NCBI RefSeq assembly: GCF_003173355.1 | Contig: NZ_QGMY01000014.1 | Location: forward strand, 1-64,000 | Length of the DNA stretch: 64,000 nucleotides | Direction of reading: 5' to 3' | Origin: Methanospirillum lacunae | Lineage (GTDB): Archaea; Halobacteriota; Methanomicrobia; Methanomicrobiales; Methanospirillaceae | Part shown: positions 20,585-32,703 of the stretch, in pieces | Numbering within the stretch: position 1 is the first letter of the stretch | Layout: each line of letters opens with the position of its first letter | Notes under the pieces: model-generated | What the model was told of the DNA's origin: nothing | The model's database searches: none | The model's input: only the letters and a program-made list of their open reading frames with translations | Made by a program: the position numbers and the translations under genes

Positions 20585-22813
20585 ATGGATTTGAACAATG
20601 TTGATCTACTGAGCACTGAAGAATTAAAAGCAGTAATTTTAACCCTTCAGGAAGAACGTAAAGAATTAAGCATTTTTGTTGAAGAAATGGCCCTGATGAG
20701 GCAGAACCAGAAAGCCGGGGATATAGAGTGGTTCATGCCTGTAGACAGATTCACCGGTGTGTACCGCACCATGGCAGAAGGGGTGAATGAGCAGGTACGT
20801 GATCATATTGGGGTTAAAAAACGAATTGTAGAAGTAATACGACATTTCGGAGAAGGGGATTTCTCTGTTGAGATGGAACAGCTCCCAGGGAAAAAGGCAT
20901 TTATCACTCATGATGTCAACATGTTCAGATCCCGGATCCTCGAACTCTTCTCTGTTCTCAATGATTTAACCACCGCTTCAGCAGAGGGAAAATTATCAAC
21001 CCGGGCAGACATCTCAAAATTTGAAGGAGACTGGAAAAACCTCGTGCAAAATATCAACAAGATGCTCGATGCCATCCTTCTCCCTATTGGAGAAGGAAAC
21101 CGGATACTCCGGCAGATCAGGGGAGGAGATCTGCGGGAGCGGGTTGAGATTGAGTGTTATGGCGATCATGAGGAGATGAAAAACGCCATCAACGGAGTGC
21201 ATCAATGGTTATCAGAACTCATCGAGTATGTCACGAAGATCTCAGCCGGAGATATGACTGCCCAGATGAGTATGGCATCTGATAAAGATCAGATCTATGA
21301 ATATCTAATACAGATGAAAGAGAGCATCAAAGCACTTGTTGCAGATGCAAACATGCTCTCTCAGGCAACCATTGACGGAAAACTCGAAACACGTGCTGAT
21401 GCCACAAAACACAGGGGAGATTATAGAAAGATCATAGAGGGAGTCAATAAAACTCTTGATGCAGTCATTGGACCTCTTAATGTGGCTGCAAATTATGTAG
21501 ACCGAATCAGTAAAGGTGATATTCCGGTTAAGATCGCCGATTCGTATAATGGTGACTTTAACACGATCAAGGTTAATCTCAATATTTGTATTGACGCAGT
21601 CAATGCGTTGGTTGCTGATGCAAATCTGTTATCTAAAGCGGGAGTAGAAGGGAGACTTCAAACCCGTGCTGATGCTTCCAAACATCGGGGTGATTTCCGC
21701 AAGATCGTGGAGGGAGTAAACGAGACACTTGACAGTGTTATCATCCCGGTCAATGAAGCACTCAGAGTATCAAAAGAGTATGCAAACTCTAACTTTTCTG
21801 CACGGGTTGATCCCTCTCTTAATGTATCAGGTGACTGGATAGCATTCAAAGATGCCCTGAACAACATCGGAATCCAGGTATCAGAGGCAGTCGGGCTCAT
21901 CAATAAACAGGTAATAGATCTTGCTTCTAATGCAGAAGAGGCAACTGCAAGTACTGAGGAAGTGGCAGCTGGTGCACAACAGGTAGTGCGAATCACCGGG
22001 GAAGTCAGCAGTAACTCTCGGCAAGGAGAAGATAGTATCATCCAGGTACTTAAGGCAATGGAAGACCTGAATATCACTGTAGCTGAAGTATCAAGAAAGG
22101 CAGAACTAGTCTCCATGACAGCAACCCAGGCCAACGACTTTGCAAAGAACGGGGTAGAACTCGCTCAAAAGTCTGAAACTGCAATGAATGAGATTAAACG
22201 TTCATCGTCAGAGGTTGATCAGATTGTTAAAGACATTAATCAGAAGATGGATGAGATCGGTAAGATCGTCCGTTTGATATCTGACATTGCAAATCAGACC
22301 AACCTATTAGCCCTGAATGCTGCAATAGAAGCTGCACGGGCAGGTGAAGCAGGACGTGGATTTGCTGTAGTTGCAGCTGAAGTCAAATCACTGGCACAGG
22401 ATTCTCGCAGTTCGGCTGAGAATATCGCAGATATGATAACTGATCTGCAAAATAAAGCTAAAATGGCGAATACTGCAATGGGGCATGCAGGTGAGACAGT
22501 GGAGATGGGCAGTTCAGCCCTGCTTGAAACCCTGGATGCTTTCAACCAGATTGCATTATCGATTGATGAGATAACCAAAAATGCAACCGATGTAGCATCT
22601 TCATCTGAGGAACAGGCTGCATCTGTAGAGGAAGTCACTGCAAGTATCAATGAAGTGAGCAGTCTTATTCAGAATACTACAAAAGATGCAGGGGATGCTG
22701 CTGCAGCAACTGAAGAAGCATCAGACGCTATTGAACAGGTTAACAGAGTTATCGGGAATGTGAGCGGGATCGCAGATGTAGTCTCAAAGGAGATGGCAAA
22801 GTTCAGGATTTAG
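20585..22813 (+). CDS. Cytoplasmic MCP with tandem HAMP array
   Basis: A 742-residue MCP with no hydrophobic segment, so it is cytoplasmic. After a short coiled start, about eight HAMP-like modules of some 45 residues follow (about 57-450). Two types alternate: GKLxTRADxxKxxGDxxKxxxGVN, seen at about 113, 263 and 353, and [23 protein letters not shown], seen clearly at about 320. The methyl-accepting coiled coil has its tip at [19 protein letters not shown] (about 569-587). The C-terminus reads [16 protein letters not shown] sits just before the ATG. A partner CheW starts 8 bp after its stop. No ligand domain is recognisable; the first 55 residues (ending [15 protein letters not shown]) may play that part. 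Confidence 0.9.
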
Positions 22814-22821
22814 GAGCGAAG

Positions 22822-23328
22822 ATGGAACTTGCTAACAGCAGAACACAATCAGGAAAGGAGACTCAGGAAGATGAAGTACAGGTTGTCGAATTCATTATTG
22901 GAGAAGACAAGTTCGCGGTCAATCTTTTTGATGTCAGGGAGATCGTAGAGGCTTCAAAGATCACTCCTCTTCCTCATGCCCCATCCCATGTCAGAGGAAT
23001 TATTGATCTACGTGGTGAAATAACGACCATTGTTGATCTTCGGCAATTACTCAGAATAAAGGCATCTAAAGATACATCCACTGCTGACCTCAGGTTCATT
23101 GTAATGGACGATACGGTCTCTTCACAGAAAACCGGTATCGTCGTTGATGAAGTAACTTCAGTTCTGACTGTTCCGGTTACCGATATTGATCAAACTACGA
23201 AAGGTGGAACTAATGAAGGAGGACACATCCTCGGGGTAATTAAGAAAGAGGTTGGAGAGCGGGGAGAAAGTAGAAAAGAACTGGTTATCTGGATTGATGT
23301 CAGGGAATTAATCTCCAACATGGGATAA
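22822..23328 (+). CDS. cheW: CheW-like coupling protein (partner of poly-HAMP MCP)
   Basis: A 168-residue CheW with VVEFIIGEDKFAVNLFDVRE, HVRGIIDLRGEITTIVDLRQ and GIVVDEVTSVLTV. AGGAGCG precedes the ATG. It follows the MCP by 8 bp and is nearly identical to the CheW at 28046. Differences fall mainly in the N-terminal 15 residues and a surface loop (DQTTKGGTNEGG against DQATNGGADDRG), pointing to a recent duplication of the MCP-CheW cassette. Confidence 0.93.
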   Translation: MELANSRTQSGKETQEDEVQVVEFIIGEDKFAVNLFDVREIVEASKITPLPHAPSHVRGIIDLRGEITTIVDLRQLLRIKASKDTSTADLRFIVMDDTVSSQKTGIVVDEVTSVLTVPVTDIDQTTKGGTNEGGHILGVIKKEVGERGESRKELVIWIDVRELISNMG

Positions 23329-25256: not shown

Positions 25257-28037
25257 ATGAAAAATACATTTGCTGATTATATCACCGCAATTCGTGATGG
25301 AGATTACGAAGCAGAGATTAATATTGAAACTGTTACGGATCTGAGCCCAGACCTTGCTATACTAATCCGGGATACTATCTCAAAACTCATCGCAAAAAAT
25401 GAGTGGTATGAATCTATTCTTGATGCAGTCCCATTTCCTATGTCAGTAACTGACAGGGATATGAAATGGACCTTCATTAATCGTTCTACTGAAGATATGA
25501 TCCATGTATCACGGAAAGAGGTCGTTGGAAAGCATTGCAGTAACTGGGGAGCTAATATCTGCAACACCCCAGAATGCGGTATTGAATTGCTTAATAAAGG
25601 CAAATCATCTGGAATATTTAAACAGGGAGATGGATTTTACCAGACAAACGTTGCGTATGTTCAGGCAAAAGACGGGAGTCGAATCGGACACATAGAAGTT
25701 GTCACTGATGTTACTGATGTAACCAGGATGAATAACTACCTGCGAAAGGAGATAGATCATACCACTCTTAACCTATCTAAACTTGCAAAAGGAGAACTGA
25801 ATCTTGATTATTCACTCACCAAGGCCGATGAATACACAAAAGATGTATCAGATCTCTTTGTTCTCACTAATAATAGTCTGAAACAGGTTGTAGATGCCTT
25901 GTCTCTGATGACTTCAGATGCATTAATCCTTTCCAGGGCAGCAATTGAAGGGAAACTCGATGTTCGAGCAGATGCAACCAAGCACCATGGCGATTTCCGT
26001 AAGATTATCGAAGGGGTAAACGAAACCCTTGATGCAGTCATCAACCCCCTCAATGTTGCTGCAGAATATGTGGATCGGATCAGTAAAGGAGATATTCCGC
26101 AAAAGATTACAGACTCATATAATGGAGATTTTAATGAAATTAAAAACAATCTGAATGCCTGTATCGATGCGATCAATCTCCTTGTTACTGATACATATTC
26201 TCTTGTTAATACAACGATTGAAGGACGCCTTGATGCCCGTGCTAATGGTACAAAACACCAGGGAGATTTCCGTAAGATTATCGAAGGAGTAAATTCCACG
26301 TTCAACATTCTGGTAGGATATTTTGATAGAATGCCCCTTCCCTTGATGGCAATCGATCGTTCTTTTAGCATATTATTTATGAATAAAACCGGGGCAGATC
26401 TTCTCGGGACGAGTAGAGAAGACCTTATCGGGAAGAAATGTTACGACCAGTTCAAAACAACCGACTGCCATACCCAAAATTGTGCCTGTGCACGGGCAAT
26501 GGAGCAAAATACTGATGTAAACCACCAGACACATGCAAAACCAGCAGGAATGGATCTTGAGATCTCATATACCGGAATCCCGATACGAAACAACAGAGGG
26601 GAGAGTACCGGTGCATTTGAATTTATCCAGGACCAGACTGCTTCAGTCAGATTGTCTGATTATCTCAAAACTGAAATAATGAAGATTGGTGAAAACCTAA
26701 ACCGTCTCAGTAAAGGGGATACAAACCTTCAGACTGTCGTCACCGATGCTGATCAATATACCCGGGAAGCACATGAGAATTTCGTCGAGATTAATAAGAA
26801 ACTGGACCAGGTAAACGATGCAATAAAACTTCTTGTTTCAGATGCCCTATTGCTTTCAGAGGCGGGAGTTGCCGGAAAATTAGAGATACGTGCTGAAACA
26901 ACCAGACATCACGGGGATTATCGCAAGATTGTGGAAGGATTTAATGAAACGCTGGATAGTGTTATCCTTCCGGTCACCGAAGCACTCAGAGTTTCAAAAG
27001 AATATGCAAACTCAAATTTTACTGCCCGGGTAGATACCTCTATCGAGGCATCAGGAGACTGGATTGCATTCAAAGATGCTCTTAATGAGATTGGGATTCA
27101 GGTATCAGAGGCTGTCAGAGTTATCAATAAACAGGTGTTGGATCTAGCCTCAAATTCAGAAGAGGCAACAGCAAGTATTGAGGAGGTATCAGCTGGTGCA
27201 CAACAGGTTGCAAGAAGTACCGGAGAAGTTAGCAGTAACTCATTAAAAGGAGAAGATGGGATCATCCAGGTGCTCAAAGCAATGGAGGACCTGAATATTA
27301 CCGTTGCTGAGGTGTCAAGAAAAGCGGAACTTGTCTCGGTCACGGCAACCCAGGCTAACAACTTTGCAAAGAACGGGGTTGACCTCGCTAAAAAATCTGA
27401 AACTGCAATGAATGAGATAAAACGCTCAACTGCGGAGGCTGATCAGATCGTTAAGGATATTAATCAGAAGATGGAGGAGATTGGAAAGATTGTCCGTCTC
27501 ATTTCAGATATCGCAAACCAGACAAACCTCCTTGCCCTGAACGCAGCAATTGAGGCAGCACGGGCAGGTGAAGCGGGACGGGGATTTGCCGTTGTTGCAT
27601 CTGAAGTGAAATCTCTTGCCCAGGATTCCCGCAGTTCAGCAGAAAGTATTGCTGATATGATTACTGATCTGCAGAATCAGGCTAATATGGCGAATGAAGC
27701 AATGAGTCAGGCTGGTAAAACGGTTGAGATCGGCAGTTCAACTCTACTTGAAACCCTGGGAGCATTTAATCAGATTGCAACGTCTATTGATGACATAACC
27801 CGGAATGCAACAGATGTGGCATCTTCATCAGAAGAACAAGCTGCATCTGTTGAGGAAGTTACCGCTAGTATCAATGAAGTGAGTAGTTTGATCCAGAACA
27901 CTTCAAAGGAAGCAGGAGATGCAGCAGCTGCGACCGAAGAAGCATCGGCTTCTATTGAACAGATTGCTAAAGTGGTCGGGAATGTGAGTGGGATTGCTGA
28001 TGTTGTCTCTAGAGAGATGACAAAATTCAGGATTTAG
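25257..28037 (+). CDS. Cytoplasmic MCP with two Cys-bearing PAS domains and HAMP array
   Basis: A 926-residue MCP without membrane segments. PAS1 (about 50-160) contains [21 protein letters not shown]-like modules (about 165-350) repeat the [16 protein letters not shown] and [15 protein letters not shown] types. PAS2 (about 355-470) contains [16 protein letters not shown] then NCAC, a second cysteine cluster. More HAMP modules (about 475-640) lead into the methyl-accepting coil, with tip [19 protein letters not shown] (about 752-770). From the last HAMP module to the end it is very close to the MCP at 20585. The cysteine-rich PAS domains could hold a metal, cluster or redox switch. CheW follows after 8 bp. 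No ribosome site is visible at the ATG. Confidence 0.9.
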
Positions 28038-28045
28038 GAGCGAAA

Positions 28046-28552
28046 ATGGAACTTGCAAATATCAAAGCACAGTCAGGAAAGGAAGTAAAGGAAGATGAAG
28101 TACAGGTTGTCGAGTTTATCATTGGAGAAGATAAATTCGCAGTCAACCTGTTTGATGTCCGGGAGATTGTAGAGGCTTCAAAGATCACTCCTCTTCCTCA
28201 TGCACCATCCCATGTAAGAGGGATTATTGATCTCCGTGGCGAGATTACTACCATTATTGACCTTCGTCAGTTACTCAGGATAAAAGCAGCAAAAGATGTA
28301 TCAACTGCAGATCTCCGGTTTATTGTCATGGATGACACAGTATCTTCGCAGAAAACCGGCATTGTCGTTGATGAGGTAACCTCGGTGTTGACCGTCCCGG
28401 TGACAGATATCGATCAGGCAACAAACGGAGGGGCCGATGATAGAGGGCATATCCTCGGGGTTATTAAGAAAGAGGTAGGAGAGCGTGGAGAAAGCAGAAA
28501 AGAACTGGTTATCTGGATTGATGTCAGGGAACTCATCTCAACCATGGGGTGA
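28046..28552 (+). CDS. cheW: CheW-like coupling protein (duplicate)
   Basis: A 168-residue CheW nearly identical to that at 22822. The junction GGATTTAGGAGCGAAAATGG is also conserved, including the 8-bp gap and the ribosome site, so the duplication covered MCP tail, spacer and CheW together. Core motifs are VVEFIIGEDKFAVNLFDVRE and [17 protein letters not shown]. Such similar copies can probably interchange between the two receptors. Confidence 0.93.
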   Translation: MELANIKAQSGKEVKEDEVQVVEFIIGEDKFAVNLFDVREIVEASKITPLPHAPSHVRGIIDLRGEITTIIDLRQLLRIKAAKDVSTADLRFIVMDDTVSSQKTGIVVDEVTSVLTVPVTDIDQATNGGADDRGHILGVIKKEVGERGESRKELVIWIDVRELISTMG

Positions 28553-28809
28553 GATCAGGTCAAAGGCTGAAAGACGAGTTGAACACCAGTCACATGTATG
28601 TACCAAAGAACATCATAGGTTCAACTGAATAGATCTCAATAGTAATGAAGGCATAACGAGAGATTTTTATAATACCACCGTGAGAACAGCAGGATAGGGT
28701 TTAAATTTAAATTTTTTATCCACCTTCTCTCACCTGTGACACGAGTCAGTTCTTGTTTTCTTAAATATATTACGAAAGGTATAGAAATACAAACTACCTA
28801 TGTGATGTC
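28553..28809. other. Spacer and likely promoter of corrinoid operon
   Basis: About 257 bp without a gene. TTAAATTTAAATTTTTTATCC (about 28700-28720) is a T-rich stretch that may end the upstream unit. CTTAAATATATTACG (about 28761-28775) is a good TATA candidate roughly 40 nt before the ATG at 28810. Confidence 0.4.
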
Positions 28810-29448
28810 ATGGCCCTTGATAAGATTGACAACCGGGTTGTAGATCTTATTACTGCCCTTATCAACATGGATCGATTGAAGATAAGGGAGATACTGAACC
28901 CTGAGGATGGGGTTATATTTAAGGAACAAATCATCGATACAATAATAGTTCCTGCCCTGGATGAGATTGGCAAAAGATGGGAAGAGGGAACGGTTGCCAT
29001 CTCACAGGTATATATGGCTGGAATCCTCATCGAAGAGATGATCTCCAGCATGGTTCCGGATATCAAATCTAACCTGAAAAATGAGAAGAAATTAGCTACA
29101 GTTGTTCTTGAAGACTATCATATGCTTGGAGAGCGGATCGTATCTGCGTACCTCATAGGTGCAGGATATACTCCTATTCGATACGGGCGACGAAATGTTC
29201 AGGAGGTACTCTCGCTCGTATCTCATGACAATATCAAATATCTTATTATTTCTACGCTTATGCTCCCTTCAGCTTTACGTATCAAGGAGGTTACGACCGG
29301 ACTTGAAGGAAAGGGAGTGAAGGTAATAGTGGGGGGAGCACCTTTCAGATTCGATCCTGAACTTGGGAAAGAGGTAGGAGCGGACAGGGTATGTTTTACC
29401 GCATCCGATGCTGTTACTGCAATTCGTGAGTTGGAGATAATGTCATGA
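28810..29448 (+). CDS. Corrinoid (B12-binding) methyltransferase-type protein
   Basis: A 212-residue protein of the MtaC/MtbC/MtmC type. The N-terminal helical cap (about 1-85) includes FKEQIIDTIIVPALDEIGKRWEEG. The Rossmann B12 domain follows, with the base-off cobalamin motif LEDYHMLGERI (DxHxxG; the His is the lower cobalt ligand), ISTLML for the nucleotide tail, and IVGGAPF. All key residues are present, so it should bind a corrinoid and could carry a methyl group. Its stop overlaps the next ATG (ATGA). Hydrogenotrophic Methanomicrobiales do not grow on methyl compounds, so a role in signalling or C1 scavenging is more likely than energy metabolism. Confidence 0.9.
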   Translation: MALDKIDNRVVDLITALINMDRLKIREILNPEDGVIFKEQIIDTIIVPALDEIGKRWEEGTVAISQVYMAGILIEEMISSMVPDIKSNLKNEKKLATVVLEDYHMLGERIVSAYLIGAGYTPIRYGRRNVQEVLSLVSHDNIKYLIISTLMLPSALRIKEVTTGLEGKGVKVIVGGAPFRFDPELGKEVGADRVCFTASDAVTAIRELEIMS

Positions 29449-30485
29449 CAATGACTTCCAGAGAACGAATTTTGACAACGCTCAGCCATAAAGAACCTGA
29501 CCGTGTTCCGCTTATTCTCAACCCTACCATGCATCCTGCACGTGATTTGGACATTCCATTAAGAGAATACTTCAAATCACCTGAACTCGTTGCCCAGGGG
29601 TTGATTACTTCCCGGGAGAAGTTTGGTACCGATGCATACATCGGATTCCATTACACTCCGGTAGAATACGAAGCATTCGGCGGGAACGTCATATTTAGAG
29701 ATGATGGCCCTCCAAACAGTGGAAGACCGGTTATCAATACCGGGGAGATAATTGACAACCTGCAGGTTCCCAATATCCATGAGACACCCTGTCTTCAGAT
29801 GGTTCTGGATATGATCCGGATCCTGAAAGCAACATCACCTGATGATGCACCGATATTTGGTGTGGCACTTTCTCCCCTCTCACTTCCGGTCATGCAGATG
29901 GGATTTGAAGATTATATCAAACTCATTTACACTGACGAGATTAGGTTTCAAAAGCTTATAGCCGCGAACAGCCGTTTTTTTCTGGGTTGGGCAACCGCAC
30001 AGATAGAAGCAGGGGCCGATGGAATTATCTATTATGATCCTGTCTCATCTCCTACGATTATTCCACATGAATTGTATCGGAAAACTGGGCTGAAAATTGC
30101 ACAAAACCTCATTCCTCAGGTACCAGGGCCTGTCGTTTCTGCTTTTGCTTCAGCCAGGGTACTTCCCATCATTGACGATGTTCTCACAACAGGGACTATT
30201 GGCGTCGCAGTTTGGGCCGGAGGAAATGAAGATCTCAACGAAATTAAAGTGAAATGTTCTGGAAAATTAACAATCATCGGAAATTTGAACGGCATAGAAA
30301 TGCGGCACTGGACCCGTGAACAGGTCTTTTCTATTGTAAAAAGAACGATACGAAGTCTTGCTCTGGGAGGAGGATTTATCATGAGTGATAATCATGGGGA
30401 GATTCCGCTCCAGGTACCTGATGAGGTGCTGTATGCTATCCGGGATGCAACTAGAGAATATGGGGGGTATCCGATCTCTGTCTGA
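29445..30485 (+). CDS. UroD-fold (MtaA/CmuA-like) protein lacking the zinc-ligand pattern
   Basis: A 346-residue protein of the uroporphyrinogen decarboxylase / methylcobamide:CoM methyltransferase superfamily. The start reads SRERILTTLSHKEPDRVPLI. Conserved fold elements include ADGIIYYDPVSSPTIIPHELY, IIGNLNGIEMRHWTREQV and IPLQVPDEVLYAIRDATREYGGYPI. Methyltransferases of this fold bind zinc through HxC and a later Cys. Here the expected HxC site reads AFASAR and the late Cys site reads SDNHGEI, so no zinc pattern is visible. It is also unlikely to be HemE, given the corrinoid partner. It may bind the methyl-corrinoid without transferring to a thiol. Confidence 0.82.
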   Translation: MTMTSRERILTTLSHKEPDRVPLILNPTMHPARDLDIPLREYFKSPELVAQGLITSREKFGTDAYIGFHYTPVEYEAFGGNVIFRDDGPPNSGRPVINTGEIIDNLQVPNIHETPCLQMVLDMIRILKATSPDDAPIFGVALSPLSLPVMQMGFEDYIKLIYTDEIRFQKLIAANSRFFLGWATAQIEAGADGIIYYDPVSSPTIIPHELYRKTGLKIAQNLIPQVPGPVVSAFASARVLPIIDDVLTTGTIGVAVWAGGNEDLNEIKVKCSGKLTIIGNLNGIEMRHWTREQVFSIVKRTIRSLALGGGFIMSDNHGEIPLQVPDEVLYAIRDATREYGGYPISV

Positions 30486-30492
30486 AGATCCA

Positions 30493-32703
30493 ATGAGTGA
30501 TCTTATACTCTTTATTTGTGAGACAGTTAAAGAGGAGATCACCAAAGTCGTTGCCGATATTCCTGTGCAAAACATCAAGATCTGTGTGTTTCCCCATTAT
30601 TGTACTTCTGGCACTCATCGGCCAGACAGTATCATCTCATTCATGAGTGAACAGATTCAGCCTGGTCAGACAGGGCTCTTCTTTGGTGATACGGATCTCT
30701 CAAGAAAAGGCCTGTTGCCACCCGGGATCTCTCATGTTGGTCCTCATACATGTTCAGGACTTCTCGCTCCGGAAGATTTTATTCAATCATTCATCTCCCA
30801 GGGATCATATGTCATTAATCCGGGATGGTTATCTTCCTGGGAGAGATATGTTACAGAAATGGGGTTTAATCCCCAGTCATCCACCTCTTACTATTCTTCA
30901 AACCTGAAAGAGATTGTTGTCCTTGATACAGGGCTGGTGCCTATCGCCGAAGAACGAATCGCCTCACTGAAGGTTTTTTCTGGACTGCCAATCAGAGTCA
31001 TTCAGGTTGGTATTTCTCATCTCTCTGGAATTATCCGTGCTGAGATCCTTCAGTGGCAGGCTGACCATATCCAGGCCGACTGCAAAAAAGAAGTCTCATC
31101 AGCATTAGAGACCACCGCTCGTCAGATGGCGGTGTTAACATTACTCAGTGATATCTCTCAGGTTAGTGAAGAAAAGGAGGTTATCTCCCGCATACTCACG
31201 ACCTGTCAATTATTGTTTGCACCTCATTTCGTGGGCTATCTTCCATTACAATCAGATGGTCCGGAAGAAATGATTCGTATGCCACCCGATTCAGAGAGTG
31301 GAATGAATAACGAACTGCTCTTCTCGGTTACTGATAAGGACTATCTCTTTTCTCCGGATGGAACCGGGTTCTGCGTTCCTATTATTAATCTCCAGGAAAC
31401 TGTGGGCATTCTTGAAATATCCGGGGTGTCAGTTCCTAGCCGGATCAAGGAGTATCTCAACCTGACTCTTTCATTTACCCGCTTCCTTGGTCTTGCGATC
31501 AAAAATGCCAGATCCTGGCAGGAGTTAAAACAAACCCGGGATGCCCTTGAGTCTGCAAATAGTGAATTGCATGATAAAAATGAGGAGTTACTTGCTATCT
31601 CCCAGGAACTCCAATCATCAAACCAGGAACTGATTACCAGTCAGAAAGAACTGAGGGAGAGTGAACAATTTATCAAAGGAATTGTAAACTCTGCACAGGC
31701 GGGAATTGCGGTTTTAGATCATGATTTTCGTATTTTGTTCTGGAATCCTGAGATGGAGAGGTTGTTTGGTATATTCTATACTACCATTATGGGAAAAAGT
31801 ATTTACGAGATTATTCCTCATTTTTTATTGGATCAGACAAAATCCCTTCTTATTCAGGGACTTTCAGGTAAAACAGTGCAGGCACCAGATTATGAACTTC
31901 CTGCATCCTCATCAGGAAAGACAACCTGGATATCAGCAATTTTTAATCCCATATTTGATATCAGTCAGAACATCATCGGAGTCATCATCAATGTCTACGA
32001 TATCACACAGAGAAAGGAATCTGAACATGATCTTGAACGTGCATATGATGCCATCCATATTGCTCAATCCAAACTTGCAATATTAAGTAGTGTCACAAGA
32101 CATGACATCCTGAACCGGGTAATGGTCATATCAGCTTACAGCGGAATGCTCTTAGAAAACGTCTCTGACGAAAAGGCATTAAAACAATTAAAGAGTATGG
32201 CGATTGCCAGTAAAGATATTCAACATCTCATTGAATTTACAAAGGAATACCAGGAACTTGGATATAAGAAACCTGCCTGGCAACTGATTCGTAATGTCAT
32301 TAACAGCCGTTCTATTCAGTCTGTTCTGACAGGAATCGAACTCTCGATTCAGGGTGATCCGGTTGAAATTTACGTGGATCTCATGCTTGAAAAAGTTCTG
32401 TATAATCTGGTGGAGAATTCAAAACGCCATGGAGAAACGGTTACTGTAATTACCATTAAAATTGAGGAGGCCGGAGAAGAACTGTTAGTAACGTATTCAG
32501 ATAATGGAGTCGGGGTGGCAGAAGATGAGAAGAAACTTATCTTCAAGCAGGGTCATGGAAAAAATACCGGTATGGGCCTGTTTTTGATACGAGAAATCCT
32601 GGGATTAACTCATATTACCATCAGGGAATGTGGAGTGCCTGGTGAAGGAGTCAGGTTCGAGATGAAGGTTCCAAAGGGTGGATGGCGCAGGATCACAGAA
32701 TAA
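30493..32703 (+). CDS. Histidine kinase with DUF1638-like N-terminus, GAF-like and PAS domains
   Basis: I start at the ATG at 30493, 7 bp after the previous stop; an upstream in-frame start at 30385 would overlap the UroD gene. 736 residues, no membrane segment. Residues 1-190 resemble DUF1638 (KICVFPHYCTSGTH; GPHTCSGLLAPEDF; GSYVINPGWLSSWERYV), a family usually encoded beside corrinoid/UroD proteins. A GAF-like domain (about 205-345), a coiled coil (345-390) and PAS (about 392-510) follow, then H-box SVTRHDILNRV (about 533-543) and HATPase with ENSKRHG, DNGVGV and GKNTGMGLF. This looks like an active soluble kinase tied physically to corrinoid chemistry. The DUF1638 assignment rests on recalled motifs. 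Confidence 0.82.
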   Translation: MSDLILFICETVKEEITKVVADIPVQNIKICVFPHYCTSGTHRPDSIISFMSEQIQPGQTGLFFGDTDLSRKGLLPPGISHVGPHTCSGLLAPEDFIQSFISQGSYVINPGWLSSWERYVTEMGFNPQSSTSYYSSNLKEIVVLDTGLVPIAEERIASLKVFSGLPIRVIQVGISHLSGIIRAEILQWQADHIQADCKKEVSSALETTARQMAVLTLLSDISQVSEEKEVISRILTTCQLLFAPHFVGYLPLQSDGPEEMIRMPPDSESGMNNELLFSVTDKDYLFSPDGTGFCVPIINLQETVGILEISGVSVPSRIKEYLNLTLSFTRFLGLAIKNARSWQELKQTRDALESANSELHDKNEELLAISQELQSSNQELITSQKELRESEQFIKGIVNSAQAGIAVLDHDFRILFWNPEMERLFGIFYTTIMGKSIYEIIPHFLLDQTKSLLIQGLSGKTVQAPDYELPASSSGKTTWISAIFNPIFDISQNIIGVIINVYDITQRKESEHDLERAYDAIHIAQSKLAILSSVTRHDILNRVMVISAYSGMLLENVSDEKALKQLKSMAIASKDIQHLIEFTKEYQELGYKKPAWQLIRNVINSRSIQSVLTGIELSIQGDPVEIYVDLMLEKVLYNLVENSKRHGETVTVITIKIEEAGEELLVTYSDNGVGVAEDEKKLIFKQGHGKNTGMGLFLIREILGLTHITIRECGVPGEGVRFEMKVPKGGWRRITE

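Follow-up and report, generated by a model that had tools for sequence, protein, structure and literature searches.

Three co-directional genes at positions 28810 to 32703 of a 64,000-nucleotide stretch of the Methanospirillum lacunae genome (positions 1 to 64,000 of NZ_QGMY01000014.1; here, the window) encode a corrinoid protein, a UroD-fold protein, and a soluble histidine kinase, as read from the sequence and from Pfam, and the linkage of the three in relatives is far beyond chance. We propose that the state of the cassette's corrinoid protein, set by loading or unloading through the UroD-fold partner, is what the kinase reports, such that the cassette would be a corrinoid-coupled input module for two-component signaling, and we put the probability of this reading at roughly one in two. 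The UroD-fold enzyme would move a methyl group onto or off the corrinoid protein, and the cytoplasmic kinase would read whether that protein is in the methyl-Co(III), Co(I), or oxidized Co(II) state by way of a DUF1638-like N terminus and/or a GAF domain. The corrinoid state would alter autophosphorylation at His537, and the phosphate would then go to a response regulator whose gene lies immediately upstream in some species and elsewhere in others. We infer that the kinase and the corrinoid protein make contact, and the same goes for the methyl donor and acceptor, the corrinoid state that signals, and the target genes; sensing of methylated corrinoid is plausible. A more specific version is held more tentatively, at less than even odds: the corrinoid protein would be the receptor of a two-component system, methylated by the UroD protein from an external donor or the cell's own methyl supply, and the DUF1638-GAF kinase would read its methyl-cobalt bond in hydrogenotrophic and methylotrophic methanogens.

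Conservation of the cassette was followed in 232 genomes of the class and in a 393-genome sample of the phylum. Searching the class with the kinase N terminus found 22 genomes, and the corrinoid, UroD, and kinase genes lay in the same order and on the same strand in 21 of them; the locus in the remaining genome (L033), which has no corrinoid gene and a UroD gene without its start, appears to be truncated. The order was repeated in six further genomes of the class. A UroD profile retrieved 29 strong members in the class, all of which adjoin the kinase except one on a contig end (G016). In the phylum sample, the cassette was also found in four Methanosarcinaceae-like genera (g50, g65, g73, and g87), and the order was kept in 14 of 14 inspected loci. 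The family name is one that we infer from the abundance of coenzyme M (CoM) methyltransferases, 16 matches to which occur in a single genome (G472). When an all-species collection was scanned with the kinase N-terminal domain alone, only close relatives were reached. The 4-bp overlap between the corrinoid stop and the UroD start was found in 29 of 35 relatives, and Methanospirillum stamsii is one named carrier of the cassette. An earlier sequence-only reading of the window had claimed that the three genes belong together, and the genome search agrees. Moreover, no other neighboring gene recurred across families among the cassette loci, neither a transporter nor a second methyltransferase. The distribution is patchy, as the cassette is present in about 29 of the 232 class genomes and missing from a complete genome of the same genus (G198), and we conclude that it is an accessory system.

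Individual loci vary on this arrangement. A tandem pair of corrinoid genes precedes the UroD gene at L100:7973-9467 (genome G496), and another contig of that genome carries a second full cassette (L127). The cassette UroD gene at L126:6164-7204 (G305) contains a single in-frame TAG at the position of a Trp codon in L125, a close relative. The gene may be a young pseudogene or, as TAG may stand for pyrrolysine in this lineage, it may be read through. Finally, the DUF1638-like kinase at L107:5407-7173 (G111) has no corrinoid or UroD genes within the 13.5 kb examined around it.

In the window, the three genes appear to make up a complete operon on the plus strand. Gene 1 (28810 to 29448) and gene 2 (29445 to 30485) share 4 bp (ATGA), and the kinase ATG of gene 3 (30493 to 32703) lies 7 bp past the UroD stop; gene content, coordinates, overlap, and gap are all exactly as the sequence-only reading had given them. 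The kinase open frame begins earlier, with a GTG at 30385, and the ATG at 30493 is absent from the M. stamsii homolog, so the true kinase start may overlap gene 2. The appearance of an operon comes from two features, a gene downstream of the kinase on the opposite strand and a TATA-like element, TTAAATATAT (28761 to 28770, plus strand), approximately 40 bp before gene 1. The latter fits the consensus and is a possible promoter of the cassette's own. Comparison of five Methanospirillum loci gave no convincing conserved promoter motif; immediately ahead of the start, the window aligns with its closest relative (L023) and with no other locus.

Gene 1 encodes a 212-amino-acid protein predicted to bind corrinoid. 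Its helical cap and Rossmann-type B12 domain match PF02607 (B12-binding_2, 33.7 bits) and PF02310 (B12-binding, 40.9 bits), both above cut-off, and alignment places an E-D-x-H-x-L-G corrinoid-ligand motif at residues 101 to 107 (29110 to 29130), in which E101, D102, H104, L106, and G107 are invariant across 21 aligned members. The cap, the B12 domain, and the DxHxxG ligand motif mark the product as a methyltransferase-type corrinoid protein with an intact B12 motif. The two domains and the motif are shared with MtbC/MtgC-type corrinoid proteins, but gene 1 scores only 50 to 53 bits against curated families with equivalog or exception cut-offs of 350 to 370, which indicates a subfamily separate from MtbC/MtgC.

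Gene 2 encodes a 346-amino-acid protein that matches PF01208 at 157 bits, with the URO-D profile covering 346 of 346 positions. Its AlphaFold model (mean predicted local distance difference test score, 90.9) is a TIM barrel with a template modeling (TM) score of 0.86 to 4ay7, the methylcobalamin:CoM methyltransferase of Methanosarcina mazei, and scores of 0.79 to 0.86 to solved URO-D superfamily members. Fold and remote sequence similarity are thus shared with the CoM methyltransferases MtaA/MtbA, but gene 2 scores 80.3 bits against a family cut-off of 235.4 (80 to 127 bits against 235 for the cassette UroD proteins), and the zinc ligands are missing. Alignment with five true MtaA/MtbA-family proteins puts A233, A235, and H317 at the positions of the MtaA-type His-Cys-Cys site, and the third ligand region is replaced by an NHGEIP motif. 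Assignment to the heme pathway as the uroporphyrinogen decarboxylase HemE fails as well, at 38.1 bits against a hemE cut-off of 302.95. We conclude from the scores and the lost ligands that gene 2 encodes a UroD-fold methyltransferase-like protein that is neither a CoM methyltransferase nor HemE. In the superfamily, His-Cys-Cys is typical of S-methyltransferases, and O-methyltransferases replace one or both Cys residues (PMC10418091). Moreover, a UroD-type methyltransferase can work free of zinc, as does the chloromethane enzyme CdmB, a first methyltransferase that, like the cassette enzyme, has the UroD fold and a corrinoid partner that is a protein of its own (PMC13222342). The likeness between the two is one of fold and of the separate corrinoid partner.

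Gene 3 encodes a predicted soluble sensor histidine kinase of 736 amino acids. There is no membrane helix (top 19-residue Kyte-Doolittle mean, 1.42), and Pfam finds a PAS domain, HATPase_c, and a sub-threshold DUF1638. Pfam, fold, and hydropathy thereby agree with the earlier description of a complete B12-binding protein, a methyltransferase-like partner, and a soluble histidine kinase. That description had also likened the kinase N terminus to DUF1638 and named profile-profile comparison as the check, and the likeness was borne out. The N-terminal domain (residues 1 to 195; 30493 to 31077) matches PF07796 at 21.8 to 24.6 bits, below the gathering cut-off of 27, but the kinase of a relative (L093) reaches 39 bits, and 20 of 36 cassette kinases match the family. 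Moreover, a profile of 35 cassette kinase N termini matched one of 37 archaeal DUF1638 proteins with a probability of 98.4 percent (E value of 3.4e-14) over the full length, positions 1 to 198, and eight control comparisons gave 0.1 percent or less. A shallower hhalign comparison, of 22 kinase and 13 DUF1638 sequences, was ambiguous (probability of 42 percent), and the deeper alignments settled the match. The profiles identify the kinase N terminus as a divergent DUF1638 domain, with clear homology even as the window member falls under the curated threshold. A sequence search of solved structures with the DUF1638 alignment returned chance-level matches only (E value of 1 or more).

Kinase residues 202 to 352 (31096 to 31548) form a GAF domain that is recognized by fold, with none in the Pfam listing: the region aligns to the PDE5A GAF domain 3mf0 with a VIA-align Z of 17.8 and a root mean square deviation of 2.6 over 149 residues, and GAF matches filled the hit list of a fold search with the DUF1638-GAF model. 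The GAF domain is a possible ligand site in its own right. A PAS domain follows at residues 394 to 511, approximately (31672 to 32025; PF08448, 53.4 bits; PF00989, 46 bits). It is missing in shorter relatives, and PAS content varies among cassette kinases. His537 (32101 to 32103), in the H-box TRHDILN, is the predicted phospho-acceptor, RHDI-N being kept in the kinase alignment, and the HATPase_c catalytic domain occupies residues 631 to 728 (32383 to 32676; PF02518, 48.8 bits). The H-box histidine and the N and G boxes of HATPase_c are conserved in the alignment. The kinase core is intact by these signatures, and autophosphorylation at His537 is predicted.

Sensor kinases associated with methyltransferases are already known. 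MsmS and RdmS of Methanosarcina acetivorans sense through heme and thiols, respectively, and, like the cassette kinase, are cytoplasmic archaeal kinases with PAS/GAF domains; they regulate corrinoid methyltransferase genes (PMC6944256, PMC11784639). MsmS and RdmS have no H-box, however, and the cassette kinase has an intact H-box and a DUF1638-like N terminus and is encoded, together with corrinoid and UroD-fold partners of its own, in a single conserved cassette. The H-box excludes it from the MsmS/RdmS type (MA_type 2), which is defined by the absence of that motif (PMC11784639). The architecture of corrinoid protein, UroD-fold protein, and DUF1638-GAF-kinase was not found in the papers searched, and neither a DUF1638 kinase nor such a cassette is described in that literature, subscription papers being outside the reach of the search.

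How the kinase might be coupled to corrinoid is suggested by DUF1638 itself. A split B12-dependent methionine synthase of Phaeobacter requires a DUF1638 gene that neighbors a B12-binding gene and has no proposed function, and DUF1638 tracks a RamA-like protein in alpha-Proteobacteria (PMC5764234). A 2025 study lists DUF1638 among cobalamin recharging proteins (PMC12478193). The Phaeobacter proteins share the homologous domain and the corrinoid connection with the cassette kinase but stand alone, whereas the cassette domain is fused to a histidine kinase. The sensing model draws its strongest support from this independent tie between DUF1638 and corrinoid state. Moreover, DUF1638-domain distances follow those of the corrinoid protein (partial r of 0.43, permutation P of 0.0002) but not those of the UroD protein (partial r of 0.03) when the other cassette parts are controlled, which hints at contact with the corrinoid protein.

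The DUF1638 domain might alternatively sense redox. Its cysteines, or the Co(II)/Co(I) couple of the corrinoid, would then report low-potential redox, for example H2 supply, rather than methyl supply, as MsmS does with heme and RdmS with thiols. C9 and C37 are invariant in 22 Methanomicrobia DUF1638-like domains, and methyltransferase-associated redox kinases have precedent (PMC6944256, PMC11784639). In many Methanosarcinaceae-like copies, however, Glu replaces C9 and C37 is missing, and the UroD enzyme would be superfluous to a pure redox sensor. We consider a thiol or cobalt redox sensor improbable. In another family (f22), a thioredoxin-domain gene directly adjoins or overlaps a DUF1638 gene that stands alone, at three loci (L112:5876-6875, L103:6467-7455, and L111:6369-7349). 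These neighbors hint at redox-active cysteines in DUF1638 and count toward the redox alternative.

Where the phosphate would go is indicated at some loci. A response regulator of REC-MetOD2 type lies upstream of the corrinoid gene in two genomes (G120 and G121), 9 bp away in the former, a REC-MetOD1 regulator lies near the cassette in G472, and several other cassettes have a PAS kinase directly upstream. Elsewhere the cassette kinase is an orphan with no adjoining response regulator, as are most Methanosarcina kinases (PMC11784639). The adjoining regulators fit phosphotransfer, as do the conserved H-box and the complete histidine-kinase core, and all argue against the idea that the kinase-like protein is really a corrinoid reactivase or chaperone, in which DUF1638 and the ATPase domain would reactivate oxidized corrinoid in place of RamA or RACo. 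That idea draws on the tracking of RamA-like protein by DUF1638 (PMC5764234) and on the absence of a RACo-type reactivase match, by class-wide search, from 6 of the 29 cassette genomes (G208, G047, G050, G120, G012, and G013). RACo is present in most cassette genomes nonetheless, and we give a reactivase very little credence. The six genomes rule out RACo as an obligate partner of the cassette. Moreover, the absence would be odd for a high-flux methyltransferase and acceptable for a low-turnover sensor.

Several observations weigh against corrinoid sensing by the kinase. DUF1638 is very divergent, and two genomes of genus g50 have a cassette kinase without a DUF1638 match, in which only the GAF domain and the kinase core are recognizable. 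Thus, the signal could enter through the GAF domain, and DUF1638, which the sequence-only reading rightly likened to the kinase N terminus, is not the invariant part of the kinase. That reading had also held that DUF1638 usually travels with corrinoid and UroD-type proteins, and apart from the Phaeobacter case (PMC5764234) this pattern was not seen: a corrinoid or UroD match lay within the 1.5-kb flanks of 0 of 30 high-scoring stand-alone DUF1638 loci in the phylum. The partial-distance test leaves some shared ancestry or saturation, and kinase core distances show the same partial correlation with the corrinoid protein. The true signal could be a ligand of the GAF or PAS domain. Finally, mean pairwise identity is 0.56 for the UroD protein and 0.47 for the corrinoid protein but 0.25 for the sensor domain. 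The two better-conserved proteins are, by this measure, probably still catalytic, which equally fits an enzyme with its own regulator.

The strongest rival is just that, a simple methyltransferase cotranscribed with a regulator that responds to some other signal. The cassette would encode an ordinary metabolic corrinoid methyltransferase pair with an undefined donor, its corrinoid protein would be catalytic rather than a receptor, and its kinase would sense a small ligand via GAF or PAS. Besides the conservation of the enzymes, the differing PAS content of the kinases, the RACo-type reactivases in most cassette genomes, and the reality of zinc-free UroD-fold methyltransferases such as CdmB (PMC13222342) all speak for it. 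Nevertheless, the kinase is third in essentially every copy, no transporter or second methyltransferase recurs beside it, six cassette genomes have no RACo match, and DUF1638 itself points to corrinoids (PMC5764234). We consider a purely metabolic pair rather unlikely.

The sequence-only reading had reached sensing by a different route, that Methanospirillum-like organisms do not grow on methyl compounds and that the sensor fusion therefore points to signaling by a methylated corrinoid or a methyl donor. The argument is weak, as a family with many methylotrophic CoM methyltransferases has the cassette too, and a second corrinoid cluster in the M. lacunae genome (G000) makes the premise of no methyl-group business too strong. 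The cluster lies at about 160000 to 165400 of contig C2 (L091:5281-10439), with a RACo-type reactivase and an MtrH-like gene on one strand and MtgC/MtbC-like corrinoid and UroD-like genes on the other. Its content suggests that, in a genus supposed to be nonmethylotrophic, methyl groups pass between a corrinoid and a pterin, in one direction or the other.

Upstream of the cassette, the window holds two consecutive chemoreceptor-CheW pairs (20585 to 23328 and 25257 to 28552) in which HAMP_2 domains are repeated and the CheW proteins resemble each other closely; the pairs look like the product of a local duplication. The upstream chemoreceptor-CheW pair does not recur beside other cassettes and was ruled out as a cassette part.

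To our knowledge, the input is known for few archaeal histidine kinases, and the regulation of corrinoid methyl transfer in methanogens is largely open. The conserved three-gene unit supplies one such kinase with a candidate input, its own corrinoid protein, and with a compact system to reconstitute. It is also a first setting in which to assay DUF1638, which genetics links to B12-dependent methyl transfer and which has no assigned role. Even where methylotrophic growth is not known, the cassette is a testable candidate for methyl-group or redox sensing via a corrinoid protein. If corrinoid state is indeed the signal, the cassette would be a further form of B12-based sensing, besides the light-sensing B12 regulators and the B12 riboswitches.

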